Below are positions 2 through 34,612 of a DNA stretch of 36,738 nucleotides, piece by piece. Below the pieces are notes generated by a model. It was not told the DNA's origin, ran no database searches, and saw only the letters and a list, made by a program, of their open reading frames with translations. The stretch lies in NCBI GenBank assembly GCA_903838985.1, contig CAIMAO010000038.1, forward strand, positions 1 through 36,738, given 5' to 3'. The first letter of the stretch is position 1. Every line of letters begins with the position of its first letter. Origin of the DNA: an uncultured bacterium. GTDB taxonomy: Bacteria > Patescibacteriota > Minisyncoccia > Phycocordibacterales > UBA9973. A program made the translations under genes and the position numbers.

Positions 2-244
2 TGCACTGAAGCCTTTAAGATAATAGAACAAGAATATCAATTCTACAAAAGAATGAATCTACCCATACCTCACTTATGTCCTAACTGTAGACACTACGCT
101 AGACTAAAACAAAGAAACCCTCTTAAACTCTGGCATAGACAGTGTATGAAACCCAACTGCACCAATGAATTTGAAACTTCTTATGCACCAGACTGTCCTG
201 AGATTGTTTATTGTGAGAGGTGTTATCAACAGGAAGTATATTAG
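2..244 (+). CDS. C-terminal end of a zinc-ribbon family protein (5' partial)
   Basis: The reading frame is open from the window edge (frame starting at base 2) to the TAG at 242-244, so this is the last 80 residues of a longer protein. It carries the second half of the family zinc module: a Cys, 24 residues, C-x2-C, 18 residues, then C-x4-C-x17-C-x2-C, ending in QQEVY. The same C-terminal arrangement is seen in four other genes of this window (4.9, 11.8, 30.4 and 32.2 kb). This copy varies slightly (DCPEIVYCERC where the others have DRPEIIYCEKC). Function is unknown; cysteine spacing suggests two zinc-binding knuckle pairs. The ATG at 53 is internal and is not the start. Confidence 0.85.
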   Translation, partial: CTEAFKIIEQEYQFYKRMNLPIPHLCPNCRHYARLKQRNPLKLWHRQCMKPNCTNEFETSYAPDCPEIVYCERCYQQEVY

Positions 245-250
245 CTTTTC

Positions 251-269
251 CCCTACACCAGGTGTAGGG
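251..269. terminator. Perfect 9-bp hairpin after the zinc-ribbon gene
   Basis: CCCTACACC, one base, then GGTGTAGGG form a perfect inverted repeat 7 bases after the stop codon. The downstream flank is AT-rich (AAATTAATAG) but has no clean T-run, so it is either a weak terminator or a short intergenic palindrome. Confidence 0.45.
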
Positions 270-302
270 AAATTAATAGATATTATTATTTTTTAGAATT
301 TG

Positions 303-311
303 TGTTATAAT
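303..311 (+). promoter_or_regulatory. Extended -10 promoter of the ABC exporter
   Basis: TGTTATAAT is a consensus extended -10 box. A weak -35 (TTATTA) lies at 283-288, 17 bp upstream. Transcription would start near 318, so the possible TTG start at 300 would be untranscribed. This supports the ATG at 351. Confidence 0.6.
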
Positions 312-350
312 ATAAAATTGGACATAAAGCTGTCCTATTTTTGGTTTTTT

Positions 351-2132
351 ATGGAAAAAGAAAAAGATTATTCAAATTTGCACGTTAAATTAGTGCTTAA
401 ATATTATTGGCAAGTAGTTAGGAAATTTAAAATTTCTTTTTTTACTGTTGTCACTTTTATAATAGCTGCTTCTATATTAGATGTCTATATACCACTTCAG
501 TATTTGAAACTTTGGAATGTTTTAAGTGCTAATAATTTTAATGTAGTTTCAATTGCTAAATCAATAATTATATTAATTTTGATATTAAATTTAATTCGTT
601 GGGTTGTTCGTCGAACTTCAAATTTTTCTCTCGATTATTTTGAATCAAATGTAATGGCAGGTCTTAGAGAACAATCTTTTTCTTATATGATTGGGCATTC
701 GCATTCTTTTTTTGCGAATAACTTTAGTGGATCTTTGACGCGAAAAATAAGTAAATATTCTTATGCTTTTGGAAAGTTTGCCGATAGAATGTCGGATGAT
801 GGATTACCTTTGGTTGTTCGTGGTATTGGTACAGTTATAGCTGTTTATACTTTACTTCCAAAATATTCTTATATATTAGGAATATTTTGTATTGTGTTTT
901 TATTAACAGCTTTTATTTATACTCGATATAAACTTAAATATGATGTTTTAGCTGCTTTAGCTGATAGCAAGACTAATGGAGTTTTGTCTGATGCCATTAG
1001 TAATCATTCTTCTATTCAAATCTTTACTGGGCATTCTTATGAAGAAGATATAGCTGAGAAGACAATACAAAAACAGAAAGACGCAACTGCTTTAAATTGG
1101 TATTTATGGGATGGACTTACTGTGATACAAAGTCTTTATTCAGTGACTATTGAATTCATTGTTTTTTGGGTAATTTTAAATGACTGGAAGTTTGCTCTTA
1201 TTACTTTACCGGTTGTTATTTTACTTCAAAATTATATGGTTCGTCTTACTGAAAACTTATGGAGTTTTGCTGGTATCATTCGTACATTCTATGATAGTTT
1301 TGCCGATGCACAAGAGATGGCGACTATTATGGATACACCATATGAAATTATAGATAAACCTACAGAAATTGCTAAAAATATAAAAGGTGAAGTTGTTTTT
1401 GAGAATGTCACTTATGTCTATAAAAATAATGATAATAAGGTGTTAGATAATTTTTCTTTGACCGTAAAACCTGGGCAGAAGATTGCTATTGTGGGCTCTT
1501 CTGGTGCAGGAAAAACGACGTTTGTGCGTCTTTTGATGAGACTTTTTGATTTGAATAGTGGGAGAATTTTGATTGACGGAATAGACATAAGTAAAATTTC
1601 TCAACAGAATCTTCGTGAGCAAATATCTTTTGTTCCTCAAGATCCAGTTTTATTTCATAGAACTTTGATGGAAAATATTCGCTATGGCAGACGTGATGCT
1701 ACTGATGAAGAAGTGTTAAGGGCTGCACGTCTTGCACACTGTGATGATTTTATAGAACAATTACCACTCAAATATGAAACATATGTGGGTGAACGTGGAA
1801 TTAAACTTTCTGGTGGTGAGCGTCAACGTGTGGCTATTGCTCGTGCTATTTTAAAAAATTCCCCAATTCTAATTTTAGATGAAGCTACATCTTCACTAGA
1901 CTCTCAATCAGAATCCTTGATTCAAGACGCATTAATAAAACTTATAGAAGGGAAAACAACAATAGTCATAGCGCACAGGCTTTCTACAATAAGACAAATG
2001 GATAGAATAATAGTGTTAGATAAAGGAAAAATAATTGAAGATGGAAATCACGATGAACTTTCAAACAAGAAAGGAGGTTTATATAAAAAGCTTTGGGATC
2101 TACAAGCTGGTGGTTTTAAAAATATTATTTAA
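351..2132 (+). CDS. ABC exporter, fused membrane and ATPase domains
   Basis: A 593-residue half-transporter of the type I exporter (MsbA/multidrug) fold. About the first 320 residues hold the hydrophobic membrane domain with five or six helices. The nucleotide-binding domain follows, with Walker A GSSGAGKTT near residue 382, a Q-loop (FVPQDP), the ABC signature LSGGERQRVAIARA near 485, Walker B ILILDEATSSLD and the switch histidine in IVIAHRLSTI. It should work as a homodimer, or with a partner not in this window; the substrate cannot be read from sequence. The ATG at 351 was chosen over an upstream TTG at 300 because a consensus -10 box lies between them. It converges on the PaaX-like gene, with a hairpin repeat between the two. 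Confidence 0.9.
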   Translation: MEKEKDYSNLHVKLVLKYYWQVVRKFKISFFTVVTFIIAASILDVYIPLQYLKLWNVLSANNFNVVSIAKSIIILILILNLIRWVVRRTSNFSLDYFESNVMAGLREQSFSYMIGHSHSFFANNFSGSLTRKISKYSYAFGKFADRMSDDGLPLVVRGIGTVIAVYTLLPKYSYILGIFCIVFLLTAFIYTRYKLKYDVLAALADSKTNGVLSDAISNHSSIQIFTGHSYEEDIAEKTIQKQKDATALNWYLWDGLTVIQSLYSVTIEFIVFWVILNDWKFALITLPVVILLQNYMVRLTENLWSFAGIIRTFYDSFADAQEMATIMDTPYEIIDKPTEIAKNIKGEVVFENVTYVYKNNDNKVLDNFSLTVKPGQKIAIVGSSGAGKTTFVRLLMRLFDLNSGRILIDGIDISKISQQNLREQISFVPQDPVLFHRTLMENIRYGRRDATDEEVLRAARLAHCDDFIEQLPLKYETYVGERGIKLSGGERQRVAIARAILKNSPILILDEATSSLDSQSESLIQDALIKLIEGKTTIVIAHRLSTIRQMDRIIVLDKGKIIEDGNHDELSNKKGGLYKKLWDLQAGGFKNII

Positions 2133-2134
2133 AA

Positions 2135-2239
2135 AAATAAAAGCGATGTTTTTGTCGGTACGGATTTTTTGAAGCTTAAAAAATCCTGAAATTCTCGCGC
2201 CGTCGCGCTCGAAACCCCTTAAAAACATCGCTTTTATTT
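2135..2239. repeat. Palindromic element, core family A, copy 1
   Basis: Perfect 19-bp inverted arms at 2135-2153 and 2221-2239 (AAATAAAAGCGATGTTTTT and its complement) enclose a 67-base core. The core holds an inner hairpin (GGATTTTTT/AAAAAATCC around an AAGCTT centre, 2162-2186) and a GC-rich CGCG/CGCG hairpin near 2196-2207. Copy 2 at 27173-27283 has the same core with one base changed, but quite different, equally perfect arms. It lies between convergent genes, where it could terminate transcription in both directions. Its right arm covers the last codons of the PaaX-like gene. Confidence 0.85.
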
Positions 2240-2782
2240 CTTTGTGCTTTTTAGAAAAGCTAAGTTTGTTTCGGGATCTAATTTGTTTGCGACTATTATC
2301 ATTAACTCTGTAGATAAATTTAAATCTTTTTTAATGTTTGTAAAAAGATGTTCATAAGGGTAGGGAGATATCCAAACTGTATTTTTAACACATACGAAAT
2401 TTGCTTTCTTTAAAAGATAACGTAATGATTCACGTTCGCTTTTTCTATTCTCTGGAAGATCTAGAATTATAATTCTCCAAAACCCATCCCAAATAGTAGA
2501 TACTAATGCTTCTTCTCCTTCAAGTTTTTTGGAGTTTAATTTACTTTTTCCTTTTTGAGTTAGTTTTAAATAATTTTTATTATCTGATTTAAGTATCTCT
2601 ACACACCCTGATTCGACTAAATTTTTCATTGAACGAGCAAGAGCATATTTAGACTTCACCCCTTCGCCCCTCTCCGAAGTTCGGAGAGGGGTTGGGGAGA
2701 GGTGAATTTCATCTAAAGGTATGGCTGGTTTTTCAGCCAATATTTTAAGTATTTTATTAGAATATCCTTGTTTGCTTGACAT
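2234..2782 (-). CDS. PaaX-like transcriptional regulator with Cas2-like domain
   Basis: 182 residues. The N-terminal ~85 residues look like a winged helix ending in an ALARSMKNLVESGCVEI recognition segment and the LTQKGKSKL wing. The C-terminal half has the pattern of the PaaX middle (Cas2-like) domain: WDGFWRIIILDLPENRKSER, then the helix ending in the conserved NTVWISPYPYEH. Proteins with this domain are often mis-called Cas2; there is no CRISPR array or cas gene here, so a DNA-binding repressor is likelier. An 18-residue segment encoded by a GC palindrome is inserted in frame between the helices of the N-terminal domain. Divergent from dnaK by 99 bp. The last two codons overlap the hairpin repeat. 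Targets unknown. Confidence 0.75.
   Translation of the reverse strand: MSSKQGYSNKILKILAEKPAIPLDEIHLSPTPLRTSERGEGVKSKYALARSMKNLVESGCVEILKSDNKNYLKLTQKGKSKLNSKKLEGEEALVSTIWDGFWRIIILDLPENRKSERESLRYLLKKANFVCVKNTVWISPYPYEHLFTNIKKDLNLSTELMIIVANKLDPETNLAFLKSTKK
2655..2706. repeat. GC-rich palindrome inserted in frame in the PaaX-like gene
   Basis: TTCACC at 2655-2660 pairs with GGTGAA at 2701-2706. Inside, CCCCTCTCCGAA (2667-2678) and TTCGGAGAGGGG (2680-2691) form a 12-bp perfect stem around a single G. On the coding (minus) strand it is read as SPTPLRTSERGEGV, with no frame disruption. Its GC content contrasts sharply with the AT-rich gene around it, like the Rickettsia palindromic elements that insert in coding sequence. 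Confidence 0.85.
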
Positions 2783-2871
2783 AGATATATCTTATCATAT
2801 ATACTATATTTATACAAATAATTCGTGGTCGCAAAATAATAGTTAAATTATTAAAAATTATAAATTAACCT

Positions 2872-2879
2872 TATAAAAT
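2872..2879 (+). promoter_or_regulatory. Probable -10 region of dnaK
   Basis: TATAAAAT lies 2 bases before the dnaK ATG at 2882. Transcription from it would start at or just past the start codon, giving an almost leaderless mRNA. No CIRCE-type inverted repeat is visible upstream. Confidence 0.4.
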
Positions 2880-2881
2880 AT

Positions 2882-4780
2882 ATGTCAAAAATAATAGGTA
2901 TAGACTTAGGTACAACAAACTCAGCAGTAGCAATTATTGAAGGAGGTGTGCCAAAAATTATTGAGAACGTAGAGGGGAATCGCACGACTCCTTCTGTGAT
3001 AGCCACTGCAAAAAATGGTGATCGTATTGTTGGTTTGCTTGCAAAAAGACAAGCGGTTACAAACCCAGAAAATACAATTTCTGAAATAAAAAGATATATG
3101 GGTCATCGTTTTGATGATCCTGGTGTGCAAAATGATAAAACTTCTGCTCCATTTAAAATTGAAGCAAGTGAAGATGGTGGAGTAAAAGTAAAAATGTCAG
3201 ATAAGTATTATCGTCCAGAAGAAATTTCTGCGATGGTTTTACAAAAAATTAAAGCAGATGTTGAAGCGAAATTAGGTGAAAAAGTCACTGAAGCCGTCAT
3301 AACAGTACCAGCATATTTTAATGATGCTCAAAGAAAAGCAACAAAAGATGCAGGGCAGATTGCAGGTCTTGACGTAAAAAGAATTATAAATGAACCTACT
3401 GCTGCTGCTCTTGCTTATGGTTTCAACAAAAAGAAAAATGAAAAAATAGTTGTATATGACTTTGGTGGAGGAACATTTGATGTTTCTGTGCTTGAAATTG
3501 GAGATGATGTTATTGAAGTTAAATCAACAGATGGAGACTCACACATGGGTGGTGGTGACATTGATAGAAAAGTTATAACTTGGATTGCTGAAGAATATAA
3601 AAAAGAGTCAGGTGTGGACGTAAGGAAAGATCCTCTTGCTCATCAAAGATTAAAAGAAGCAGCAGAAAAAGCTAAACATGAACTTTCTACAACAATGGAA
3701 ACTGAAATAAATATTCCATTTATTACTTCTGATGCAGAAGGTCCAAAACATTTATTATTGAAAATGTCTCGAGCAACTCTTGAATCACTAGCAAAAGAAT
3801 ATGTTGATCGTTCTATTGCAATCACAAAAAGAGCATTAGAAGCTTCACCATTTAAGATGAATGAGATAAATGAAATCATAATGGTGGGTGGACAGACAAG
3901 AATGCCAATGATTGTTGAAGCTGTGAAGAATCTTTTTGGCAAGACACCAAATATGTCTATAAATCCTGATGAAGTCGTGGCTCTCGGTGCTGCGGTCCAA
4001 GCAGGAGTACTCGCAGGAGATGTGCGTGATGTCCTACTTCTTGATGTTATACCACTTTCCTTAGGTATTGAAACACTTGGAGGAGTAGGAACAAAATTAA
4101 TTGAGAGAAACACAACAATTCCTGCTTCAAAATCTCAAGTATTTTCAACAGCAGCTGATAATCAAACTTCAGTAGAAATTCATATAGTTCAAGGAGAACG
4201 TCCTATGGCTTCTGATAACAAATCTCTTGGTCGCTTTATCTTAGATGGAATTCCACCAGCACCTCGAGGTATGCCTCAGGTAGAAGTGACATTTGATATT
4301 GATGTGAATGGTATATTGAATGTTAAAGCTATGGATAAAGCATCAGGGAAAGCTCAATCTATTAAGATAGAAGCAAGTTCAGGACTTAAAGAAGAAGATA
4401 TTAAAAAAATGCAACAAGATGCTGAACTTCATGCAGAAGAAGATAAAAAGAAAAGAGAAACTGTTGACATAAAAAATACTGCTGAAATGATTATTTATAC
4501 AGCAGAAAAAGCTTTGAAAGATAATGAAGCAAAAATCCCGGCTGATGTAAAAGATGGTGTTAATGCAAAGATAACTGCGTTACGTGGAGTTAAAGATGGA
4601 ACAGATGCTGATGCTATTAAGAAAGCAACAGAAGAACTTTCAAATGAAATGTCTAAAATCGGCGAAGCTATGAGTAAAGCCAATGCTGAGGCGGGACAAG
4701 CTGGAGCTGAATCTTCAGTCCCCGAAGAACAAAATCCTGAAGTTCAAGATGCTGAGTCTCAAGAAGGAGAAGCAAAATAA
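2882..4780 (+). CDS. dnaK: Chaperone DnaK (Hsp70)
   Basis: 632 residues, full family length. The ATPase domain begins [18 protein letters not shown] and contains the phosphate motif [17 protein letters not shown], the [11 protein letters not shown] segment and the GGQTRMPMI adenosine motif. The linker [19 protein letters not shown] leads to the substrate-binding domain and helical lid. The C-terminal tail is acidic and Gln/Glu-rich rather than ending in EEVD-type residues. It works with DnaJ (dnaJ lies at 10.4 kb); grpE is not in the window. There is no Shine-Dalgarno before the ATG. A strong terminator follows, so it appears monocistronic. Confidence 0.98.
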
Positions 4781-4792
4781 TAAGATTCTATC

Positions 4793-4828
4793 AAAAAAAC
4801 AACCAGTAAAAAGCTGGTTGTTTTTTTT
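4793..4828 (+). terminator. Rho-independent terminator of dnaK
   Basis: AAAAAAACAACCAG (4793-4806) pairs with CTGGTTGTTTTTTT (4814-4827) across a 7-base loop, followed by further T. It begins 12 bases after the dnaK stop. Confidence 0.9.
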
Positions 4829-4860
4829 GATTTTTATATAAAAAGGCATATTATATAAAT

Positions 4861-4933
4861 ATGGATTCTGAGGTAAAAATTTGTCAAAATCCCGCCCGTA
4901 CCGAACGGTACGTTCGGGCGGGTGTAAAAAAGG
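4861..4933 (+). pseudogene. 5' remnant of a zinc-ribbon gene split by a palindrome
   Basis: The ATG at 4861 reads MDSEVKICQN, matching the start of the family (compare MKSEIKNCQNCKK of the gene at 32156). Exactly between CQN and the expected CKK, a 32-base GC palindrome (4891-4922) is present; TGTAAAAAA, which would encode CKK, resumes at 4923. The fragment stops after about 25 codons and a complete family member starts at 4934. This looks like a truncated tandem copy with a palindromic insertion. The alternative is a short upstream ORF that happens to resemble the family. Confidence 0.6.
4891..4922. repeat. 32-base GC-rich palindrome
   Basis: CCCGCCCG at one end matches CGGGCGGG at the other. 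The centre can fold either as TACCG-AA-CGGTA or as CCGAACG-GTA-CGTTCGG. It is nearly 70 percent GC in an AT-rich background and interrupts the conserved CQN/CKK codons of a zinc-ribbon gene remnant, so it looks inserted. Confidence 0.8.
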
Positions 4934-5278
4934 ATGAGTAATATTTCTGAAAAAAGAATATGCCAGAACTGTAAAGGTGAATTCTTAATCGAGCCTGAAG
5001 ATTTTTCTTTTTATGAAAAAATAAAAGTTCCTCCACCTACATTTTGTCCAGAATGTAGAAGACAACGTAGAAACGCATGGAGAAATACTTTTTCTTTATA
5101 TTCTAGAAAATGTGATTTATGTAATAAATCGGTCGTTTCTATTTATTCTCTAGATTCTGGGATAATAATTTATTGTAATAAATGTTGGTGGAGTGATAAA
5201 TGGGACCCCAAAAATTATGGCGTAAATTATGATTTTTCTAAGCCATTTTTTTTTACAGCACAAAGAGCTCATGAATAA
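4934..5278 (+). CDS. Zinc-ribbon family protein, N-terminal part of a frameshifted gene
   Basis: 114 residues. The N-terminal family zinc module is intact: C10-x2-C13, 24 residues, C38-x2-C41, 18 residues, C60-x2-C63, 17 residues, C81-x2-C84. The frame then runs through a tract of nine T (5246-5254) and ends in an out-of-frame tail (TAQRAHE). Removing one T restores KPFFLQHKELMNKIP, which aligns with RPFFEQLSELFKNVP of the copy at 30.4 kb and joins this piece to the downstream frame as a 576-residue protein. It is either a real +1 frameshift (inactivation or slippage) or a homopolymer sequencing error. Confidence 0.85.
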   Translation: MSNISEKRICQNCKGEFLIEPEDFSFYEKIKVPPPTFCPECRRQRRNAWRNTFSLYSRKCDLCNKSVVSIYSLDSGIIIYCNKCWWSDKWDPKNYGVNYDFSKPFFFTAQRAHE

Positions 5279-6665
5279 AATTCCCCATATGGCTGTTGTA
5301 AATGATGATGGCATAGCTAGTGTTAATTGTGAATATACTCATGATACTTGGTTTTCTAAAAATTGTTATATGATGTTTTCTGGTTGGTATATTGAAAATA
5401 TTATGTATAGTTTTTTTGTTACTGCTGGTAAAAACATTATTGATACTATCATTAATATGGCTCGATCAGAATATCTTTATGAATGTATAAATTGTTCACA
5501 TGGTTATAATGTAAAATATTCTGAATATGCTGGAGCATGTATTGATTCTCAATTTATGTTTGACTGTAGAGATTGTTCGGATTGTTTTATGTGTTCTGGA
5601 CTCAGAAATAAAAAATACTTTTTTAAAAATAAACAATATACAAAAGAAGATTATGAAAAAATTTTGGGTGAATACAAACTAGATACTTTCTCTGGAGTAG
5701 AAAAAGCAAGAGAAGAATTTAAAGAATTTATTTTAAATTATTCTCGTAGATATGCATGGTTTAAACAAAATAAAGATTGTTCAGGTGATGTTATCTCATA
5801 TAGTAAAAATACTAAAAAATGTTTTATCTCAAAAAGATGTGAGCATTGTAAATATAGTGAATATCTAACTAGTGATAAAGACTGTTATGACCTTGTTATG
5901 TCTGGAGAGCTTTCCGAAAGCTATGAGGGGGTAGTGGTTGATCATTCTCAATTAAATCTTTTTGGACTTTTTTCAGTAAAAAGTCAGGATATTAAATATA
6001 CTCAGCATTGTCATTCTTCTAAATATTTATTTGGTTGTGTTGGTTTGAGAAACGCACAATATTGTATCTTTAATAAACAATATACAAAAGAAGAGTATGA
6101 AGAATTAATTCCAAAAATAATTAAACATATGAATGATATGCCATATATAGACAAAAATGGGAATAAATATCGTTTTGGGGAATTTTATCCAATTGAATTT
6201 TCACCTTTTGGTTATAATGAAACTCTTGCCATAGAAGATATCGCATTAACAAAAGATGAAATTATTGACAAAGGATTTAAATGGCAAGGAAACTTACAAA
6301 GAACTACTGGTAAAGAAACATTGAAACCGGAAAATATTCCTGACTCTATAAATGATGTGTCAGATTCTATTCTAGAAGAAATACTTGTTTGTATAAATTG
6401 TAAAAGAAATTATAAAATTGTTCCAAATGAACTTATTCTTTATAGAAAAATGAAAATACCAATTCCACGGAGATGTTTCCATTGTAGACATAAAAATAGA
6501 ATAAGGAAGATGAATCCTTTTAAGCTTTGGCATAGGCAATGTATGTGTGATAAAGAAAACCATGAACACAGTGAAAGATGTAATATTGAATTCGAAACTT
6601 CTTATTCATCTGATAGACCTGAAATTATCTATTGTGAAAAGTGTTATCAGCAGGAAATATATTAG
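5229..6665 (+). CDS. Zinc-ribbon family protein, remainder of the frameshifted gene
   Basis: Second frame of the gene beginning at 4934; family homology begins at the T-tract (about 5246), and the first internal ATG is at 5271. It holds the duplicated Cys/Tyr/Asn-rich core: the first half ends GLRNKKYFFKNKQYTKEDYE and the second GLRNAQYCIFNKQYTKEEYE. The C-terminal zinc module follows (C-x2-C-x24-C-x2-C-x18-C, then a knuckle widened by a His-containing insert, then C-x17-C-x2-C) and ends QQEIY. The function is not recognised. The widened knuckle (CDKENHEHSERC) is peculiar to this copy. It ends 32 bases before the next gene. Confidence 0.85.
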   Translation: MIFLSHFFLQHKELMNKIPHMAVVNDDGIASVNCEYTHDTWFSKNCYMMFSGWYIENIMYSFFVTAGKNIIDTIINMARSEYLYECINCSHGYNVKYSEYAGACIDSQFMFDCRDCSDCFMCSGLRNKKYFFKNKQYTKEDYEKILGEYKLDTFSGVEKAREEFKEFILNYSRRYAWFKQNKDCSGDVISYSKNTKKCFISKRCEHCKYSEYLTSDKDCYDLVMSGELSESYEGVVVDHSQLNLFGLFSVKSQDIKYTQHCHSSKYLFGCVGLRNAQYCIFNKQYTKEEYEELIPKIIKHMNDMPYIDKNGNKYRFGEFYPIEFSPFGYNETLAIEDIALTKDEIIDKGFKWQGNLQRTTGKETLKPENIPDSINDVSDSILEEILVCINCKRNYKIVPNELILYRKMKIPIPRRCFHCRHKNRIRKMNPFKLWHRQCMCDKENHEHSERCNIEFETSYSSDRPEIIYCEKCYQQEIY

Positions 6666-11784: not shown

Positions 11785-13455
11785 ATGAATAATAGTGAAA
11801 AAAGAATATGTCAGAATTGTAAAAAAGATTTTGTGATAGAACAAGATGATTTTTCTTTTTATGAAAAAATAAAAGTTCCTCCACCTACATTTTGCCCAGA
11901 ATGCAGACAACAGAGAAGAATGGCATGGAGAAATGATTATGATTTTTATCATAGAAAATGTGAATTTTGTGAGGAAAGAATATTATCTATTTACTCAGAA
12001 GATAAGCCTTTTAAAATATTATGTCCAAAATGCTGGTGGGGAGATGGTTGGGATCCAAAAAAATTTTTACAAGAATTTAATTTTGGAGAATCATTTTTTT
12101 CTCAGTTTCGACGGTTTATGGAAAAAGTGCCAGTATTGGGGGTTTTAAATGATAATAATATAGCAAGTATAAATTGTGATTATACGAATTATTTTGCACT
12201 AGGAAAAAATTGCTATATGGTTATAAATTCTTGGAAAGTTGAAAATTGTATGTATTCTGTTTGTTTAGTCGATGTCAAAGATTCAATTGATTGTGCAGTT
12301 TTACTCAACGGTGGAGAAAATCTTTATCATGCTATTTATGTAGAAAATTCTTCTCGTTCAAAATATGTATATAATTCCGCATTACTTTTAGATTGTTTTT
12401 TCTGTTTTGATTGTAGGGGGTGTACTAATTGTTTTATGTGTTTTGGATTAAGAAACAAAAGTTATTGTTTTAAAAATAAACAATATAGCAAAAATGAATA
12501 TAAGAAAATTTTAGAAAAATATAAATTAAATTCTTGGACTGGAATAGAAAAAGCAAAAAACGAGTTTAAGAAATTTTCACTTAGTTTGCCTCATAAATAT
12601 GCAAATATAAATAATTGTGTGAATTGTACAGGAGAATATCTTGTTAATTCAAAAAATTCAAAACATTGTTACATTACAGTGCGTGCTGAAAATTCTAAAT
12701 ATTTTGAACGTGGAGATACTATAAAAGATAGTTATGATTGTTTAAGTGGAGGAGAACAGGAACTTTGTTATGAATCTATTAATCCTGATAATTCTTACAA
12801 AACTTTATTTACAACTTATTGTCACAGGTGTACTGATGTTCTTTATAGTGATAGTTGTCAATCATCAGAAAATCTTTTTGGATGTGTAGGACTTAAAAAA
12901 GCTAAATATTGTATTTTTAATAAGCAATATTCTAAAGAAGAATATTTTTCTATGAAAGAAAGAATTATTGAACATATGAAAAAAACATGTGAATGGGGTG
13001 AATTTTTTTCAATGAAATATTCTCCATTTGCATATAATGAATCTGTAGCGCAAGATGAGTTTCCTCTCTTAAAAGAAGAAGTTATAAAAAGAGGATTTTT
13101 TTGGCAAGAATCAATTACAAAAACAAAAGGGAAAGAGACGTTAAAAGAAATTCCAGACAATATAGAAGATATTGATGATTCTATCTTAAATGAGATATTG
13201 ATATGCCAGTCGTGTGACAGAAATTATAAAATTGTTAAAAACGAATTAAATTTTTATAAAAAGAATTTAATTCCAATACCGCGTGAATGTTTTTTTTGCA
13301 GATTAAAAGGACTTTATAAAGAAAGAGGCCCTGTAAAGCTTTGGTATAGACAATGTATGAAAGAAGGATGTACTAATAAATTTGAAACTTCTTATGCCCC
13401 TGATAGGCCAGAGATTATTTATTGTGAAAAATGTTATCAGCAAGAGGTTTATTGA
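11785..13455 (+). CDS. Zinc-ribbon family protein, intact copy
   Basis: 556 residues from the ATG at 11785; earlier in-frame starts overlap the GNAT gene. N-terminal zinc module C9/C12, C37/C40, C59/C62, C80/C83 and C-terminal module C474/C477, C502/C505, C524/C529, C547/C550 share the same spacings (24, 18, 17). Between them lie two related core units rich in Cys, Tyr, Asn and Ser, each ending in GL(R/K)xxxYCxxNKQYSK(N/E)EY. It ends QQEVY followed by TGA. Short motifs such as SKYVYNS and KNSKHCY recur about every 20 residues and could form a beta-helix; this is speculation. No signal peptide or membrane segment. The function is not known to me. Related copies in automated annotations carry unreliable names. 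Confidence 0.85.
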   Translation: MNNSEKRICQNCKKDFVIEQDDFSFYEKIKVPPPTFCPECRQQRRMAWRNDYDFYHRKCEFCEERILSIYSEDKPFKILCPKCWWGDGWDPKKFLQEFNFGESFFSQFRRFMEKVPVLGVLNDNNIASINCDYTNYFALGKNCYMVINSWKVENCMYSVCLVDVKDSIDCAVLLNGGENLYHAIYVENSSRSKYVYNSALLLDCFFCFDCRGCTNCFMCFGLRNKSYCFKNKQYSKNEYKKILEKYKLNSWTGIEKAKNEFKKFSLSLPHKYANINNCVNCTGEYLVNSKNSKHCYITVRAENSKYFERGDTIKDSYDCLSGGEQELCYESINPDNSYKTLFTTYCHRCTDVLYSDSCQSSENLFGCVGLKKAKYCIFNKQYSKEEYFSMKERIIEHMKKTCEWGEFFSMKYSPFAYNESVAQDEFPLLKEEVIKRGFFWQESITKTKGKETLKEIPDNIEDIDDSILNEILICQSCDRNYKIVKNELNFYKKNLIPIPRECFFCRLKGLYKERGPVKLWYRQCMKEGCTNKFETSYAPDRPEIIYCEKCYQQEVY

Positions 13456-13470
13456 AATTAACTAATATTT

Positions 13471-14061
13471 ATGTTTCCAGAACAAATAATTTATATTGGA
13501 GTATTTATAAACCTCATAGGAGAGTTTTTTTATCTTAAAGGGATGTTTTCTGGAAATACAAAACCGAACTTAATCAGTTGGTTTATTTGGATGTTGGCTC
13601 CATTTATTGGTGTATTTTTACAAATTAAGGCTGGAGCAGGGTTATCGATTTTACCAGTATTTATGGCAGGATTTGGACCATTTTTAGTAATAGCTTTTTC
13701 TTTGTTTAAAAAGAATGCTTATTGGAAAATAGAATCATTTGATTTACTTTGTGGATTCTTTTCTTTAGTAGCTTTATTGATTTATGTAGTTACATATAAT
13801 TTAGGGATATCAATACTTTTTGCAATTATTAGTGATGGCCTAGCAGCAATTCCAACATTAATAAAGTCTTGGAAATTTCCAGAAACAGAAACAGTTGCTA
13901 TCTTTATAGTTGGTGCGATAAATAGTGTATTTGGTTTATTAATAATCAAAAACTGGACCTTCTCAGTTTATTCTTTTGGTATTTATCTTGTGTTAATGAA
14001 TGCAGCAATAGCTTTTTGTATTCTTCATAAGAAAATGCTATATTTTAACAATGAAAAATAA
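13471..14061 (+). CDS. Small polytopic membrane protein of unknown function
   Basis: 196 residues with about seven hydrophobic segments. Two stretches look alike: NTKPNLISWFIWMLAPFIGV near residue 30 and AAIPTLIKSWKFPETE near 130. Their proline followed by a conserved Trp recalls PQ-loop/SemiSWEET-type transporters, but I cannot confirm that family. It starts 15 bases after a zinc-ribbon gene and overlaps the following aguB by 11 bases, so it is probably translated with the polyamine genes. A role in substrate movement for that pathway is only a guess from position. Confidence 0.65.
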   Translation: MFPEQIIYIGVFINLIGEFFYLKGMFSGNTKPNLISWFIWMLAPFIGVFLQIKAGAGLSILPVFMAGFGPFLVIAFSLFKKNAYWKIESFDLLCGFFSLVALLIYVVTYNLGISILFAIISDGLAAIPTLIKSWKFPETETVAIFIVGAINSVFGLLIIKNWTFSVYSFGIYLVLMNAAIAFCILHKKMLYFNNEK

Positions 14062-19400: not shown

Positions 19401-19429
19401 ATTATAACACTTAATATTGAGTATTAGCA
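19401..19429 (-). promoter_or_regulatory. Promoter of the AI-2E family gene
   Basis: On the minus strand TTGCTA (19429-19424), a 17-bp spacer and TATAAT (19406-19401) preceded by TG give a near-consensus extended promoter. The start would be near 19394, 3 nt before the ATG. The -35 box overlaps the outer arm of the hairpin repeat at 19426-19518. Confidence 0.7.
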
Positions 19430-19518
19430 AAAACTACCTAAAAATTTTCATCCCTGCGCCCTTCTCGGATTACCGAGTGGGACCCTCGGGAAGTGAAAAT
19501 TTTTAGGTAGTTTTTGCT
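19426..19518. repeat. Palindromic element, core family C
   Basis: Perfect 25-bp arms at 19426-19450 and 19494-19518 enclose a 43-base GC-rich core. The core contains a nested hairpin (CCC-TT-CTCGG-atta-CCGAG-T-GGG, 19459-19481) and a TCCC/GGGA pair near its ends. Organisation matches the A and B elements, but the core differs. It lies between divergent genes, with its left arm touching the -35 box of the AI-2E-family promoter. Confidence 0.85.
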
Positions 19519-19889: not shown

Positions 19890-19919
19890 AAAAAATCACC
19901 CTAAACAGGTGATTTTTTT
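19890..19919 (+). terminator. Rho-independent terminator of rplU
   Basis: AAAAAATCACC (19890-19900) pairs with GGTGATTTTTT (19908-19918) across CTAAACA. The T-run overlaps the stop codon of convergent recR, and the A-rich left arm could make it work for recR too. Confidence 0.9.
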
Positions 19920-22010: not shown

Positions 22011-22099
22011 GCAGATTCTGCAAAGAATTTTTGAGTCTTCGCCCTCGGAGTCATAAAGACAGGGGACCCACGACTCTTAAAATTCTTTGCAGAATCTGC
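22011..22099. repeat. Palindromic element, core family B, copy 1
   Basis: Perfect 21-bp arms at 22011-22031 and 22079-22099 enclose a GC-rich core of about 47 bases. Within the core GAGTC (22033-22037) pairs with GACTC (22072-22076), CCCT (22042-22045) with AGGG (22061-22064) and GTC (22050-22052) with GAC (22058-22060). The same core, with three or four base changes, occurs at 29728-29813 between unrelated arms. It lies between divergent dnaB and trpS, ending about 10 bases before the trpS -10 region. Confidence 0.85.
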
Positions 22100-25786: not shown

Positions 25787-27166
25787 ATGAAAATAAATTT
25801 TAAAAAACCAACAAATGAAAAAGAAATTCTTTTTGTATCTGTTGACTCAAAAAATAAAGATGAAGTTGTAAAAGAAAATGGAGTAAAAACACTTTACCTA
25901 AAAAGTGACGAAGAAATGAACTTAAGAAAGTTATTTTTACTTGTCCGTAAAATGATTCAGATGGCTAAGGGTGTAAAAGCAGAGAAAGTAAGTTTTGATT
26001 TTAATGACTTTAAATTTAAAAATATTAATTTAACAGATATAGAGCTTGGAGAAATTATTGGAACTCAACTTGATTTTGCAAATTATGAATTTGTTGAATA
26101 CAAAACACCTACAAAAGAAGGTTTTCCTTTTGTAAAAGAAATTTATATTTCAGGGGTAAACAGTGAAATAGAAAAAGCAATTTTAAAAGGAAATGTTATT
26201 GCTGATGAGGTGAATAAAACTAGAACACTTTCAAATATGCCGGGTGGGGATATGACTCCAGAAATCTTATCAAAAAAAGCAAAAGAAGCTGTGAAAGGTT
26301 TGCCAGTGAAAGTTGTAGTATTGGGTGAAAAAGAAATGCAAAAACAGAATATGCAAGCTATTCTTTCTGTCGGACGTGGATCAGAAGAAGAATCTAAATT
26401 CATTATTTTAGAATATTTTGGTGGTAATAAGAAAGAAAAACCAATAGTATTAGTCGGTAAAGGTGTGACCTTTGACACAGGTGGAATAAATTTAAAACCC
26501 TCAAATAGTCTTCTTGGTATGAATATGGATATGTCCGGAGGTGCGGCTGTAATACACACTATTGCTCTCGTTGCAAAAATGAAATTAAAAAAGAATGTGA
26601 TTGGTTTGATACCTTCTGTCGAAAATATGGCATCTGGAAAAAGTTATAGACCTGGAGACGTAATACGTTCAATGTCGGGAAAAACTATTGAAGTTTTAAA
26701 TACTGATGCAGAAGGAAGAGTGATACTTGCAGATGCATTAACATATTCTCAAAAATATAAACCAGAAATTGTGATAGATATAGCGACTCTTACAGGAGCT
26801 GCTTGTGTATCCCTGGGAGAAAGAGCTTCAGCTATTTTTACAACAGATGATGATTTATCAAAAAAAATGGAAAAAATTGCAGAGGAAACGGGGGATTATA
26901 TTTGGCGTTTACCTTTGTGGGAAGAATATGAAAATGAAATAAAAGGATCACTTGGAGATTGGACAAATATTCAAAATAAAAATTCTGGTTATGGTGGAGC
27001 TATTTATGCGGCTGTATTTTTATACCAGTTTATAAAAGGCCATAAATGGGCACATTTAGACATAGCCCCTCGTATGACAGCGATGCAGGGGGAAAATCTA
27101 GCTAGTGGAGCTTTAGGTACTTCTGTGAGGCTTCTATATAAGTTTATTGAAGAATACAAGGCATAA
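25787..27166 (+). CDS. pepA: Leucyl aminopeptidase (M17 family)
   Basis: 459 residues. The N-terminal ~150 residues form the variable domain. The catalytic domain has VGKGVTFDTGGINLKPS, MNMDMSGGAAVIHT, and the M17 signature NTDAEGRVILADAL, which supply the two-metal site and catalytic Lys/Arg. The end (APRMTAMQGENLASGALGTSVR) is also typical. It releases N-terminal residues from peptides as a hexamer. Start ATG at 25787, 17 bases after aspS and without a Shine-Dalgarno, so it probably reads through from the T-box transcript. A core-A hairpin element follows. Confidence 0.96.
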   Translation: MKINFKKPTNEKEILFVSVDSKNKDEVVKENGVKTLYLKSDEEMNLRKLFLLVRKMIQMAKGVKAEKVSFDFNDFKFKNINLTDIELGEIIGTQLDFANYEFVEYKTPTKEGFPFVKEIYISGVNSEIEKAILKGNVIADEVNKTRTLSNMPGGDMTPEILSKKAKEAVKGLPVKVVVLGEKEMQKQNMQAILSVGRGSEEESKFIILEYFGGNKKEKPIVLVGKGVTFDTGGINLKPSNSLLGMNMDMSGGAAVIHTIALVAKMKLKKNVIGLIPSVENMASGKSYRPGDVIRSMSGKTIEVLNTDAEGRVILADALTYSQKYKPEIVIDIATLTGAACVSLGERASAIFTTDDDLSKKMEKIAEETGDYIWRLPLWEEYENEIKGSLGDWTNIQNKNSGYGGAIYAAVFLYQFIKGHKWAHLDIAPRMTAMQGENLASGALGTSVRLLYKFIEEYKA

Positions 27167-27172
27167 AAGTGA

Positions 27173-27283
27173 AAAAATCCCAAATAAAGTTTTTGCCGGT
27201 ACGGATTTTTTGAAGCTTAAAAAATCCTGAAATTCTCGCGCCGTCGCGCTCGAAACCCCTTAAAAACTTTATTTGGGATTTTT
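27173..27283. repeat. Palindromic element, core family A, copy 2
   Basis: Perfect 22-bp arms (27173-27194 and 27262-27283) enclose a 67-base core that differs from copy 1 at 2154-2220 by one base. Both copies share GTTTTT/AAAAAC next to the core; beyond that the arms are unrelated (TCCCAAATAAA here, AAAAGCGAT there), yet each is perfectly self-complementary. As in copy 1, it lies between two convergent genes (pepA and the MFS gene) and could terminate both. Confidence 0.85.
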
Positions 27284-27287
27284 GTGT

Positions 27288-28514
27288 TTACAAAACCTCT
27301 ACGGGTTCTACTTCGATGTGTTCGTGTTCTTTGGGTTTTATATTTTTATATGTATTAAATATAAATATAAAAGAAATAGATAAAATTAATCCTGATAAAA
27401 CATAAGGCAAACTTGCACCTATGCCATAAACTAGTCCACCCAAAAGTGGTCCGATGATCATTGAAAGTGACATAAGTGAAGCTAAAATCCCCATCATTTC
27501 TCCTTGCTCTTTTTTATCTGAGAAACTAATTATTTGACTATTCATAACTACGCGCATTGTTGAATGTCCAAAAGCAGTGACGATTAATCCGAAAAAGAAA
27601 GCAAACTTATATGGTAATGCCATTACAAAATATCCTAAAGCAAAAGGTATGAGCATATAAACCATCAAGAAAGATTCTTCAAAATATTTGAGCCAAACTT
27701 TACGAATAAAGAATGCTTGATTGAGAGAAATTATTATTCCAACGAATGCCATAAGTAAACCAGAGGCAACGACTGTCCAAGAAAATATTTTTGCAATATA
27801 TAGGGCAAATATTGATTGATTGAGCGAGATAGCTATTCCAAAAAACAACCAAGCCAAATAAAGTGGGAGAATATTTTTATTTTTCCAAGCTTTGATTATA
27901 GGTGCGAATGGATTTAAAGAAATTTCTTTTGTATTTCTGTCATGATGCGTTTCTGGTAAAAAGAAATAAGCCAAAATTGTATTTATTGTGGCTAATACTC
28001 CCACAACGATGAATGGCAATTTCATACTAAAAGTAGAAAGTACTCCGCCTACTAAAGGTCCAATGATAAAAGCTATTCCAAAAATTGCACCGATTAATCC
28101 TAAATTTTTTGTTTGTTCTTTTCTATCTTTTGATATATCTATTAAATAATTTTGAGCAGTTGAAATATTTCCTGCAGCTGAACCGTCTATTATTCTTCCC
28201 AAGAAAAGTCCGAAAAGTGTTTTTGAAAAAGCAAAAATTATCCAGCCAATCGCTGAAGATGCGAGACTCACGAGTAATACTGGACGTCTGCCTTTTCTGT
28301 CAGAAATCATTCCTAATATAGGTGCACTGAAAAATGCAAAAAGAGAGAAAACAGCAAAAAGTAATGTAACTACAATGTCTGGGACGTTAAAAGATTCTAC
28401 ATAATATGGAAGTATAGGTACGATAAGGCCTATACCTAAAACATCTAAAAATACTGTAGATAATATTATAATTTTTGGTGAGAATTTTGATTTATTTTCA
28501 ATATTTTCCTGCAT
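27288..28514 (-). CDS. MFS drug exporter, TetA-like
   Basis: 408 residues with 12 predicted membrane helices. DVLGIGLIVPILPYYV opens helix 1 as in TetA/DHA1 exporters, and the loop between helices 2 and 3 has motif A, GMISDRKGRRPVLL. Motif C-like Gly/Pro-rich sequence (GAIFGIAFIIGPLVGG) is in helix 5. Proton-coupled efflux is expected; the drug or metabolite is unknown. On the minus strand TGCTAAATT just upstream could serve as an extended -10 giving a near-leaderless message. Divergent from tspO by 61 bases. Confidence 0.9.
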   Translation of the reverse strand: MQENIENKSKFSPKIIILSTVFLDVLGIGLIVPILPYYVESFNVPDIVVTLLFAVFSLFAFFSAPILGMISDRKGRRPVLLVSLASSAIGWIIFAFSKTLFGLFLGRIIDGSAAGNISTAQNYLIDISKDRKEQTKNLGLIGAIFGIAFIIGPLVGGVLSTFSMKLPFIVVGVLATINTILAYFFLPETHHDRNTKEISLNPFAPIIKAWKNKNILPLYLAWLFFGIAISLNQSIFALYIAKIFSWTVVASGLLMAFVGIIISLNQAFFIRKVWLKYFEESFLMVYMLIPFALGYFVMALPYKFAFFFGLIVTAFGHSTMRVVMNSQIISFSDKKEQGEMMGILASLMSLSMIIGPLLGGLVYGIGASLPYVLSGLILSISFIFIFNTYKNIKPKEHEHIEVEPVEVL

Positions 28515-29013: not shown

Positions 29014-29772
29014 GTGGAAACTGAAGCGTATAAGATAAAAACTCAAAATTTTGAAGGGCCATTTCATTTATTACTTTCTTTAATTGAAGAAAGGAAGTTT
29101 TTTATTAATGATTTGTCTTTGGCACAAGTGACAGAAGATTATTTGAAGTATGTTAATACTTTAGATGAATTAAATACACATGAAATTTCTAATTTTATAG
29201 TTATTGCTGCTACTCTCATTCTAATAAAATCAAAATCCCTTTTACCTAATTTAAATCTTACTTCAGAAGAAGAGAGCGATATCCATAATTTAGAAGATAG
29301 GTTAAAACTATACGAAATTTATACAAAATTAGCTGAAAACATTAAAAATGTTTTTGGAGAGAAAATTATTTTTGCTCCACTTGAAAGAAAAAATGAAGTT
29401 TTAATCTTTTTGCCTGATGATCAGATTACAAAAGAGAATATGATGACTTTTGCACGTGATGCGTTAGGTAGAATTCCAAAAAAAGTTTTATTGCCTGAAG
29501 TGGAAGTTAAAAAAGTAATGAGCATAGAAGAAATGATAGATAAACTAACAGAAAGAATACAAGATTCTTTCAAAATGAGTTTTAAAGATTTTTCTGGGGT
29601 TGCAAAGACAAAAGAAGAAAAAGTGCTTGTAATTGTTAGTTTTCTTGCTATGCTAGAACTTGTAAGGCAAGGTATACTTCATGTAGTGCAAGATAATATT
29701 TTTGAAGATATTTTAATAGAAAAATATGATAAAAATTCAAAAATTTTTGAGCCTTCGCCCTCGGAGTCATAA
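29014..29772 (+). CDS. scpA: Segregation and condensation protein ScpA
   Basis: 252 residues from a GTG at 29014. The N-terminal SMC-binding region has the usual FEGPFHLLLSLIEERKFFIND, followed by the SNFIVIAATLILIKSKSLLP helix; the C-terminal winged helix includes VIVSFLAMLELVRQGILHVVQ. It is the kleisin subunit bridging SMC heads, with ScpB. The last ~15 residues (ending KIFEPSPSES) and the stop codon are encoded by a core-B palindromic element, so the native tail has been replaced. scpB starts 53 bases downstream. Confidence 0.94.
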   Translation: METEAYKIKTQNFEGPFHLLLSLIEERKFFINDLSLAQVTEDYLKYVNTLDELNTHEISNFIVIAATLILIKSKSLLPNLNLTSEEESDIHNLEDRLKLYEIYTKLAENIKNVFGEKIIFAPLERKNEVLIFLPDDQITKENMMTFARDALGRIPKKVLLPEVEVKKVMSIEEMIDKLTERIQDSFKMSFKDFSGVAKTKEEKVLVIVSFLAMLELVRQGILHVVQDNIFEDILIEKYDKNSKIFEPSPSES

Positions 29773-29813
29773 GGACAGGGAACCCACGACTCTTAAAATT
29801 TTTAATTTTTATC
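29728..29813. repeat. Palindromic element, core family B, copy 2, inside the scpA 3' end
   Basis: Left arm 29728-29747 (20 nt) and right arm 29795-29813 (19 nt) pair fully except for one bulged C. The core (GCCCTCGGAGTCATAA, then GACAGGG and ACCCACGACTCTTAAAA) matches copy 1 at 22011-22099 apart from a few substitutions, while the arms are unrelated. It supplies the last codons and the TAA of scpA and fills most of the scpA-scpB gap. Confidence 0.85.
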
Positions 29814-30397: not shown

Positions 30398-32134
30398 ATG
30401 GAAGCAGAAAAGAAAATACATTCGATAAACTCAGTATCTACGAACTGCCAGAATTGCAAAGGTGAATTTTTGATTGAGCCAGATGATTTTTCTTTTTATA
30501 AAAAAATGAAAGTGCCAGCACCTACATGGTGTCCTGAATGTAGAATAATAAGAAGGATGTTGTATAGAAACGAAAGATCTTTATACAAACAAAATTGTGA
30601 TCTTTGTAATAAACCTACCATTTCAATGTATGATCCTAGAGATAAGTATGTTGTATACTGCAATGATTGTTATGCTTCTGATAAATGGGATCCAATAAAT
30701 TATGGAGTAGATTACGATTTTTCAAGACCATTTTTTGAGCAATTAAGTGAATTATTTAAAAATGTTCCACGAAGGGCTTTGTATAAAGATTATGCTGTAA
30801 ATAGTGAATATACAAATCAATCAGTATATATGAAAAATTGCTATCTTTGTTTTGGTGGACATCATTATGAAGATAGTGCTTATTGTGCTCAAAATTTTTA
30901 TTTAAAAAATTGTTTAGACACTGATTTCTCTCATAAAAGTGAATTCTGTTTTGAATCGCTTCATTTAAAAAATTGTTTTAGAGTTAGATATGGATTTTAT
31001 TCTGAAAGTTGTATGGATTCTTGGTTGATTTATGGTTGTCGTAATTGCTCAAATTGTGTTGGTTGTACAAATTTGATAAATAAAAATTTCTGTATTTTTA
31101 ATCAACAATATACCAAAGAAGAATATGAAAAAAAAGTTGAAGAAATGGGCCTTTCTAATCCAGAAAATTTAGAAAAAATTAAATTAGAATTTTTTAAAGA
31201 TTCTTTAAAATTTCCAAGAAAATATGCGAATATAAAAAATATTGTAAATTCTACGGGAGACGACATAGAACAAGTAAGGAATTGTAAATATGTTTTTTCT
31301 GTGACTGAAGGTGAAAATATTAGATATTCTTTTTTTTCTCCAACAGGAGCAAAAGATTGTTTTGATATAGATCATGCTGGGCTCGGTCTTACTGAGGCTT
31401 ATGAATTACATAGCGGTTTTGGTGACAACAGAGTTTTATTTTCCAATAGAATCTATGATTCTCACAATGTTGAATATTCAGATGATTGTTATAACGATGA
31501 ATATCTTTTTGCTTGCGCCGGATTACGTAAAAAATCATACTGTATTTTTAACAAGGAATATAGCAAAGAAGAATACGGCATACTCGTAGAAAAAATTAAA
31601 AAGCACATGGATGATATGCCTTATGTAGATAAGAAAGATAGAGTATTTAAATACGGAGAATTTTTCCCAATAGAAGTTATTCCTTTTAGTTATAATGATT
31701 CTGTTATTTGTGAATATTTTCCTTTGACTAAAGAAGAAATTATAGAAAGAGGTTATAAATATGTCGAACCAGAAATAAAAAATTATAAACCAACCATTTT
31801 GCCGCATCAGTTGCCCTCTGTTGAAGATGTAGATGAAAATATTTTGCAGGAGGTTATTCAATGTGAGCATATGGGTCATTGTAATGATAGATGCACTTCA
31901 GCTTTTAGAATAATTCAAAATGAATTAAATATTTGTAAAATGTTAAAAGTTCCGTTACCAAAACTTTGTCCAAATTGTCGTCACATGTCTAGAATTAGTT
32001 TATTAAATGCACCTAGGCTTTATGATAGAAAATGTATGAAAGAAGGCTGTCAAAATAAATTTGAAACAAGCTATGCTCCAGATAGACCTGAAATTATTTA
32101 TTGTGAAAAGTGTTATCAGCAAGAAGTTTACTAG
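30398..32134 (+). CDS. Zinc-ribbon family protein, first of a tandem pair
   Basis: 578 residues. N-terminal module C17/C20, C45/C48, C67/C70, C88/C91. The C-terminal module has the same spacing but a widened first knuckle (CEHMGHCNDRC, residues 489-499), then C524/C527, C546/C551, C569/C572, ending QQEVY. The central two-unit core includes NCYLCFGGHHYEDSAYC, a CRNCSNCVGCTNL cysteine cluster, and NFCIFNQQYTKEEY / SYCIFNKEYSKEEY closing each unit. It directly follows scpB and is followed after 21 bases by a second family member. No catalytic motif, signal peptide or membrane segment; the function is unknown. Metal binding follows from the cysteine pattern. Confidence 0.87.
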   Translation: MEAEKKIHSINSVSTNCQNCKGEFLIEPDDFSFYKKMKVPAPTWCPECRIIRRMLYRNERSLYKQNCDLCNKPTISMYDPRDKYVVYCNDCYASDKWDPINYGVDYDFSRPFFEQLSELFKNVPRRALYKDYAVNSEYTNQSVYMKNCYLCFGGHHYEDSAYCAQNFYLKNCLDTDFSHKSEFCFESLHLKNCFRVRYGFYSESCMDSWLIYGCRNCSNCVGCTNLINKNFCIFNQQYTKEEYEKKVEEMGLSNPENLEKIKLEFFKDSLKFPRKYANIKNIVNSTGDDIEQVRNCKYVFSVTEGENIRYSFFSPTGAKDCFDIDHAGLGLTEAYELHSGFGDNRVLFSNRIYDSHNVEYSDDCYNDEYLFACAGLRKKSYCIFNKEYSKEEYGILVEKIKKHMDDMPYVDKKDRVFKYGEFFPIEVIPFSYNDSVICEYFPLTKEEIIERGYKYVEPEIKNYKPTILPHQLPSVEDVDENILQEVIQCEHMGHCNDRCTSAFRIIQNELNICKMLKVPLPKLCPNCRHMSRISLLNAPRLYDRKCMKEGCQNKFETSYAPDRPEIIYCEKCYQQEVY

Positions 32135-32140
32135 CCCTTG

Positions 32141-32160
32141 GATAGTATATTAGATATGAA
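32141..32160 (+). repeat. 20-bp direct repeat at a gene junction, copy 1
   Basis: GATAGTATATTAGATATGAA begins after the stop of the first tandem zinc-ribbon gene and runs into the start codon of the next gene. An identical 20-mer occurs at 33866-33885 after the second. The bases between stop and repeat also align (TAGCCCTTG versus TAGTCTTTA). It contains TATATT, a possible -10 box. Confidence 0.8.
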
Positions 32161-33859: not shown

Positions 33860-33865
33860 TCTTTA

Positions 33866-33885
33866 GATAGTATATTAGATATGAA
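33866..33885 (+). repeat. 20-bp direct repeat at a gene junction, copy 2
   Basis: Identical to 32141-32160. It runs into the ATG of the M24 peptidase gene, so a duplicated gene end plus spacer and promoter now serves an unrelated gene. Confidence 0.8.
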
Positions 33886-34612
33886 CACAAAATTAATTCA
33901 CGAAGTTCGTGCTGTAAAAAACAAAAAAGAACTTGGATATATTATTAAAGCTCAAAGGATAAGTGAGCGGGTTTTATATGACACATTAAAATATTTAAAA
34001 GAAGGAATGCCCGAAGTAGAAGTTTCTAATTTTATTAAAAAATCTTTTATAAAATATGGTGCACCCATCTTATCCTTTCCACCAATAGTAGCTTTTGGAA
34101 AAAATACAGCAAATATTCATCATCTTGTTCCGACAAAAAATAAATTAAAAAAAGGAGATATTTTGATGTTTGATATTGGTTGTACAGTAAATCATTATTG
34201 TTCAGACATGACCCGTACATATTTTTTGGGTGAACCTTCAAAAAAGCAAAAGAAAATTTATATAAATGTCCTTGAAGCTCAAAATCGTGCAATTTTAAAA
34301 ATTGAAAAAGGTGAACGTAACGCAAAATTAATTGATAAAGCGGCAAGAGAATTTTTGAACAAAAAATTTGGAGTAAAAAAATTTGCTCATGGTTTAGGAC
34401 ATGGGGTAGGAACTGTAATACATGAATGGCCAAATTTAAAACCAAAAAGTGAAGATATTATACCAGTTGGTTGTGTCATGACAGTTGAACCAGGCATATA
34501 TTTAAAAGGTTTTGGTGGTGTACGGATAGAAGATATGGTTTTAATTACCCCAAACAGTTGTAGAAATTTGACTAAGATTCCGAAGGATTTAGACAGTGTA
34601 ATACTAAAATAA
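33881..34612 (+). CDS. M24 family metallopeptidase (Xaa-Pro/Met aminopeptidase type)
   Basis: 243 residues, the pita-bread catalytic domain only. Metal ligands are visible: Asp in LMFDIGC, Asp in CSDMTRTYFLG, His in HGLGHGVGT, Glu in TVEPGIYL and Glu in VRIEDMVLI. SDMTRT and HGLGHGVG resemble PepQ/Xaa-Pro dipeptidases rather than the MetAP consensus, but the N-terminal creatinase-like domain of those enzymes is missing. It removes an N-terminal residue from peptides; the exact specificity is undecided. The ATG lies in the 20-bp junction repeat. Confidence 0.88.
   Translation: MNTKLIHEVRAVKNKKELGYIIKAQRISERVLYDTLKYLKEGMPEVEVSNFIKKSFIKYGAPILSFPPIVAFGKNTANIHHLVPTKNKLKKGDILMFDIGCTVNHYCSDMTRTYFLGEPSKKQKKIYINVLEAQNRAILKIEKGERNAKLIDKAAREFLNKKFGVKKFAHGLGHGVGTVIHEWPNLKPKSEDIIPVGCVMTVEPGIYLKGFGGVRIEDMVLITPNSCRNLTKIPKDLDSVILK

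Follow-up and report, generated by a model that had tools for sequence, protein, structure and literature searches.

The hairpins dispersed through this genome appear to be old transposon-like repeats in which the arms change as matched pairs, and not a wholly new kind of element. With moderate confidence, we read them as small, non-coding palindromic repeats of the MITE type (miniature inverted-repeat transposable element), with a conserved two-hairpin centre, arms that are remodelled by template switching, and selection on both the centre and the pairing. In the genome of one sister species, G030, the element has moved whole, arms included, and is an ordinary MITE. At most loci outside G030, the centre is kept and often flipped, the arms drift as matched pairs, and the pairing can reach the end of the neighbouring gene. 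The window is the whole stretch of 36,738 nucleotides that was analysed; G and L numbers label genomes and loci, and G000 is the window's own genome.

Two hairpins between convergent genes

The window contains two copies of a 67-nt centre, core A, that differ by one base, and the coordinates and sizes given for them in an earlier note hold. The arms are, as claimed there, perfectly self-complementary over 19 and 22 bp, and both copies lie between convergent open reading frames (ORFs). The features are as follows.

300–2132, plus strand: ABC transporter ORF, stop 2 nt upstream of copy 1
2135–2153, plus strand: 5' arm of copy 1, 19 bp, perfect complement of 2221–2239
2154–2220, plus strand: core A, copy 1, 67 nt; the conserved part, CGGTACGG...AAACCCC, starts at 2156
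2162–2186, plus strand: core hairpin 1, GGATTTTTT-GAAGCTT-AAAAAATCC, based on covariation
2192–2213, plus strand: core hairpin 2, with a UC/UC internal loop on the plus strand (tandem G.A on the minus strand) and a CGTC loop
2221–2239, plus strand: 3' arm of copy 1, extending into the last codons of the convergent ORF at 2234–2782
2234–2782, minus strand: ORF with a PaaX_M (Cas2-like) domain, convergent to the ABC transporter ORF
19426–19518: hairpin of core family B, 25-bp perfect arms and 43-nt core
22011–22099: hairpin of core family C, 21-bp perfect arms and 47-nt core
25787–27166, plus strand: M17 aminopeptidase ORF, stop 6 nt upstream of copy 2
27173–27194, plus strand: 5' arm of copy 2, 22 bp, perfect complement of 27262–27283
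27195–27261, plus strand: core A, copy 2, 67 nt, one base different from copy 1
27262–27283, plus strand: 3' arm of copy 2
27288–28514, minus strand: MFS transporter ORF, convergent to the M17 aminopeptidase ORF
29739–29803: second copy of core family C, a hairpin with different arms

Both core-A hairpins fold far beyond shuffled sequences (z of -6.4 to -7.7, matched by 0 of 200 shuffles). Their arms had been described as unrelated, which is correct for the outer arms, since these are locus-specific, but the inner 12 nt outside TTTTT carry a weak common consensus that the two copies fit at p=0.013 and 0.017 against shuffles. Target-site duplications, found in G030 copies, were not established for the two window copies. 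Core A is accompanied by at least three further core families (B, C and D), each found in hairpins with their own locus-specific arms. At the second core-C hairpin (29739–29803), the repeat provides the final codons and stop of a plus-strand ORF, 29014–29772, that runs into it. Elsewhere in the window, stretches 115–6665, 11788–13492 and 30425–33896 contain diverged repeats common to several ORFs (families D1–D7 of the repeat search), apparently members of a single expanded family of paralogues.

Core A is a covarying three-way junction

Core A is a three-way junction whose pairs covary. Two-sided changes were found at 12 of 19 core pairs, and at 7 of 7 pairs in core hairpin 2, and the covariation score of 0.262, compared with 0.083 for shuffled alignments, was reached by 0 of 500 shuffles. 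The two strands are not equivalent. Wobble pairs in the arms favour the strand opposite to the written one (71 vs 27), as do those in the core stems, where the written strand has 11 A.C/C.A and no G.T/T.G pairs; read on the minus strand, hairpin 2 would also hold a conserved loop of tandem G.A pairs. Of 59 tandem cases, 42 place the wobble-favoured strand antisense to the upstream gene (p=0.0015), and no replication-strand bias was seen by local GC skew (58 vs 49). Genes tend to end close to the core: 99 of 124 facing 3' ends lie within 35 nt of it, compared with 31 of 85 gene 5' ends. Searches of Rfam gave no match in the window at gathering score, and permissive searches stayed far below gathering scores. 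TIGR arrays were considered and set aside, as their architecture differs.

Copy number and spread

The 751-kb genome (46 contigs) carries 16 good and 2 degenerate copies of core A. Across the window genome and 59 relatives, 29 of 60 genomes have a match at E<=0.01, and a search of 247 genomes of the order with the core covariance model finds a match in 28. Among named genomes, the exact core pattern occurs only in one Candidatus Paceibacterota MAG, on which basis the host is likely a member of Paceibacterota; the pattern is absent from the viral contigs searched. An origin from phage DNA was also rejected, the aminopeptidase stretch having no match in the phage collection.

Arms were scored in stretches of 13 genomes that total about 1.73 Mb, where 117 of 126 matches were used (those dropped were short, weak or at a contig edge); later counts exclude 10 copies of the G030 subfamily and refer to the remaining 107. 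Comparison of the 117 copies, a kind of check that the earlier note had proposed, supports its expectation that arms pair inside each copy and differ across copies. The median pairing score is 21 for a copy's own arms and 10 across loci, and the 5' arms of separate copies have little mutual resemblance. A reverse design was also observed, in which constant arms, ATCCCGTTAGAGAT or near variants, surround interiors of about 60–95 nt that vary by copy (L123:16205-16325, L112:3770-3858, L114:16880-17001, L148:16393-16513, L100:2154-2274 and L082:3908-4030; also L174 and L233).

Arms change in matched pairs

The arms do belong to their locus: arm similarity is higher between orthologues (0.77/0.75) than between paralogues (0.61/0.60), with cores equally similar. 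At orthologous sites, core identity averages 92.0% and that of the arms 66% and 69%, in 52 strict ortholog pairs that share copies and are not independent. Of 1076 paired arm cells in these pairs, 845 are unchanged, 137 have changed on one side, 74 have changed on two sides and still pair, and 20 have changed on two sides and no longer pair. The 74 double paired changes compare with 8.2 expected if the sides were independent. Watson-Crick pairing is found in 2534 of 2742 arm cells, and one ortholog pair has an identical two-base indel on both arms. The core itself is flipped in 23 of the 52 pairs, and among the 11 G030 copies in which the interior can be judged, 4 have it reversed relative to the outer ends. 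Separate insertion events of opposite orientation could give the same picture. The closest genomes compared are about 77% identical, and so no single template-switch event was seen.

Locus specificity is graded along the arm. Of the 38 type-1 copies, 26 fit an inner-arm consensus of 12 positions outside TTTTT better than shuffles do (p<=0.05); past about 20 nt, the arms have nothing in common. An extra base, mostly C, occurs on the 5' arm 9–14 nt from the core, with 54 events on that arm and none on the 3' arm in 107 copies. Outer arms can also include coding sequence. When 95 of 104 gene ends were taken, the last 9 coding nt paired with the opposite arm at 8 or more of 9 positions in 19, compared with 1.6% in a swapped null. 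For example, a 12-bp outer arm at L148:15013 matches the last part of an AdoHcyase-family gene; G030 has the homologous codons too, at a site without a core. Among the matches listed, arms holding the last codons of conserved genes were found at L148:15013, L134:5363 and L105:16953, and in a core-B hairpin at L125:1765.

A MITE in a related genome

G030 has 12 full-length copies with common arms and ends, CTTTGAATTACGAAACTC...GAGTTTCGTAATTCACGA, in an element of about 135 bp plus ends, and 10 of the 12 have target duplications of 6–8 nt. A search for empty sites of these 12 copies gave 3 weak orthologous junctions. The shared arms and target duplications define a MITE, which weakens the earlier statement that no named class fits. 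That note had also taken shared arms in other copies as the mark of an ordinary element, and these do exist in G030, but descent of the G000 arms from the MITE was not shown: at p<=0.05, a MITE end is detectable in 0 of 16 G000 copies. Outside the G030 subfamily it is detectable at that level in 10 of 107 copies (reversed control, 2 of 107). With these counts, common descent can only be inferred for most copies, and the simplest version, in which every copy is a diverged MITE, is weakened. Diverged copies at L104:7910 and L106:1723 still have the MITE outer ends. Within the order, G030-type ends also flank core A in genomes of other families (G314, G039 and G258), and they surround other cores in G039. 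Two copies of the G030 MITE, L110:10246-10400 and L105:7384-7528, measure 155 and 145 nt instead of 135; the additional nucleotides lie within the loop of core hairpin 1, which shows that this loop tolerates insertions.

A search for a partner transposase with MITE ends found, among the matches listed, end pairs at the distances expected of short elements; in the two wider pairings, of 644 and 1371 nt, a separate end match is linked to a neighbouring short element. A RAYT/Y1 transposase was ruled out as the mover by lack of linkage, with 0 of 30 Y1-transposase loci having the core at a significant score, and by its absence from G000, which has no Y1_Tnp match (55 of 80 genus genomes have one). 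Some of the Y1 (RAYT-like) transposases at L186-L215 are close to short palindromes such as AACATGTCAAAGAG.

Orthologous sites with and without core A

Relatives show a variety of states at the same gene junctions. The site downstream of the aminopeptidase is occupied by core C with its own arms in G003, by reversed core A in G073 and by a small hairpin in G062, and G100 has none. Behind the ABC transporter, core C is found in G003 and G088, and short gaps in G062, G093 and G027. The MraZ-RsmH junction has full core-A copies in G030, G073 and G067 and damaged ones in G004 and G072; at most other loci shown it is short and without core A. Copies also lie behind ATP synthase subunit C; in relatives the genes at this junction overlap or are separated by a short gap, and no such hairpin is present. 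Single-arm remnants without a core were found in G088, G021 and possibly G089. Loci with a lone core-A-type arm, with neither core nor partner arm, are L161, L237 and L250; these arms are probably deletion remnants. When empty sites were searched for the ancestry of a single arm (72 of 93 empty-site pairs scored), p<=0.05 was reached for 21% of 5' arms and 15% of 3' arms.

Weighing the alternatives

The earlier note offered two routes to hairpins of this kind. In one, bidirectional terminators were there first and the core entered their loops, which makes the arms old terminator stems. Convergent gaps are indeed enriched for copies (27/94 vs 186/1537, p=2.7e-5), type-1 copies often have an A/T tract 20–25 nt from the core, and some relatives have plain short-loop hairpins at matching places (among the matches listed, window position 19895 vs L089, L066:15655, and L093 vs L075). 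However, these plain hairpins have a stem unlike the core-bearing arms, the inner arms have a common consensus, and copies occur inside operons, including MraZ-RsmH, and behind ATP synthase subunit C. The T-tract is also no stronger on the side predicted by gene direction (16 vs 16 tandem cases; 5.92 vs 5.83, p=0.62). Loop insertion is quite unlikely, and the operon copies and T-tract counts speak against it as a general route, although a few loci fit. Intrinsic termination was likewise rejected as the general function, since the T-tract (a U-tract on the transcribed strand) ignores gene direction. In the other route, flanking DNA is copied in inverted form as a step of the insertion, such that arms are created at each landing. 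Arms containing the last codons of conserved genes are consistent with this, as are the G048 arms, which are unrelated right up to the core. Those codons are equally explained by copying after insertion, however, and the clear recent insertions in G030 bring their own arms and make target-site duplications. We consider creation at landing unlikely; inverted copying of flanking DNA is supported for part of the arms, where gene ends pair well above the null. The inner arms are related across loci. The idea that all arms are made by their locus was dropped, given the inner-arm consensus and the G030 MITE.

The hairpins might instead be a functional structured RNA of gene 3' ends, with a closing stem that is free to vary and no current mobility. 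The closeness of the core to facing 3' ends, the strong covariation, the wobble preference for one strand in both arms and core stems, the extra base confined to the 5' arm and the putative tandem G.A loop of the minus strand would all suit an RNA. Against it, the wobble-favoured strand is mostly antisense to the upstream gene, no Rfam family matches, the G030 copies are a mobile family, and orthologous sites are often without core A or have another core family; this account is improbable in our estimate. It would be a long shot for the core to be a mobile or functional module, recognised by its structure, that builds or rebuilds its closing stem out of local DNA by inverted copying, with a protein that reads shape (the three-way junction, the strand-specific 5'-arm bulge and the tandem G.A) and not arm sequence, and with the unrelated cores A, B, C and D acting likewise in one genus. 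A MITE-like repeat with a constrained centre and paired arm remodelling explains most of the data by known processes, and does so better than both earlier ideas.

Under this MITE-like explanation, copies with locus-specific arms would be older relatives of the G030 element, whose arms may have been repeatedly re-copied from each other by template switching at short range in the course of replication. When it occurs between inverted repeats, such switching is described as homogenising arms and inverting spacers in the available text of PMC8604942, and as able to create and maintain hairpins in that of PMC8794818. The same process may act here, as the arm homogenisation and core flips match these two documented outcomes. 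Selection would then maintain the centre and the arm pairing, and the centre presumably acts as a folded strand of RNA or single-stranded DNA, the complement of the written strand being the likelier of the two. The constant 5'-arm bulge counts against the re-copying model, being unlike what homogenisation alone leaves.

Comparison with known systems

Relative to textbook MITEs, the repeats described here have frequent flips, strand-specific features and several cores built in one style. Double-hairpin elements of fungal mitochondria are compact mobile two-hairpin units in AT-rich genomes, and core-A repeats resemble them in both respects, on a general likeness. The attC site of integrons has a variable loop and a conserved stem base; it was rejected as a model, as core A is arranged in reverse, with a conserved centre and a variable stem.

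Bacterial MITEs, as portrayed in the accessible part of PMC10969869, are similarly short, non-coding and AT-rich, with inverted-repeat ends and target-site duplications (6–8 nt in G030), and they too are intergenic stem-loops that can have common ends around different interiors. Relative to that portrayal, the present repeats differ in their mostly locus-specific arms, paired changes and conserved centre, and no partner transposase was found for them. The SPRITE repeat of Streptococcus pneumoniae, in the portion of PMC3049150 available, is also a terminator-like dispersed repeat near the 3' ends of coding sequences, with AAAA/TTTT ends and an 18-bp duplex. By that description it is set apart from core A, since SPRITE is one family with its own stem, whereas the core-A stem varies per locus, encloses a three-way junction, and has a T-tract that does not track gene direction. 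REP/BIME elements with RAYT, going by the text available of PMC3733652, are likewise dispersed palindromes downstream of genes, with paired hairpins and a CGTC motif. In core A, however, CGTC is the loop of hairpin 2 and not an unpaired end tag as that text has it, and there is no RAYT linkage (0 of 30 Y1 loci) and no RAYT in G000. Similar in their pattern of change are the template-switch inverted repeats in the available sections of PMC8604942 and PMC8794818, which have perfect arms, paired multi-base changes and spacer inversion; those are short inverted repeats in yeast coding DNA and in RNA genes, whereas the present case is a dispersed repeat family. Literature searches gave no prior account of such elements in this group, which does not prove that none exists.

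Significance

If this explanation is right, one genus provides a natural series of more than 100 related hairpins in which the centre and the arms follow different rules. The part that template switching plays in maintaining and lengthening perfect stems could then be tested at many loci together, and the series would supply a structured element, strongly covarying and asymmetric between strands, as an object of study. Care must also be taken in interpreting such hairpins, as perfect locus-specific arms need not imply that a core has jumped into ready-made ones.
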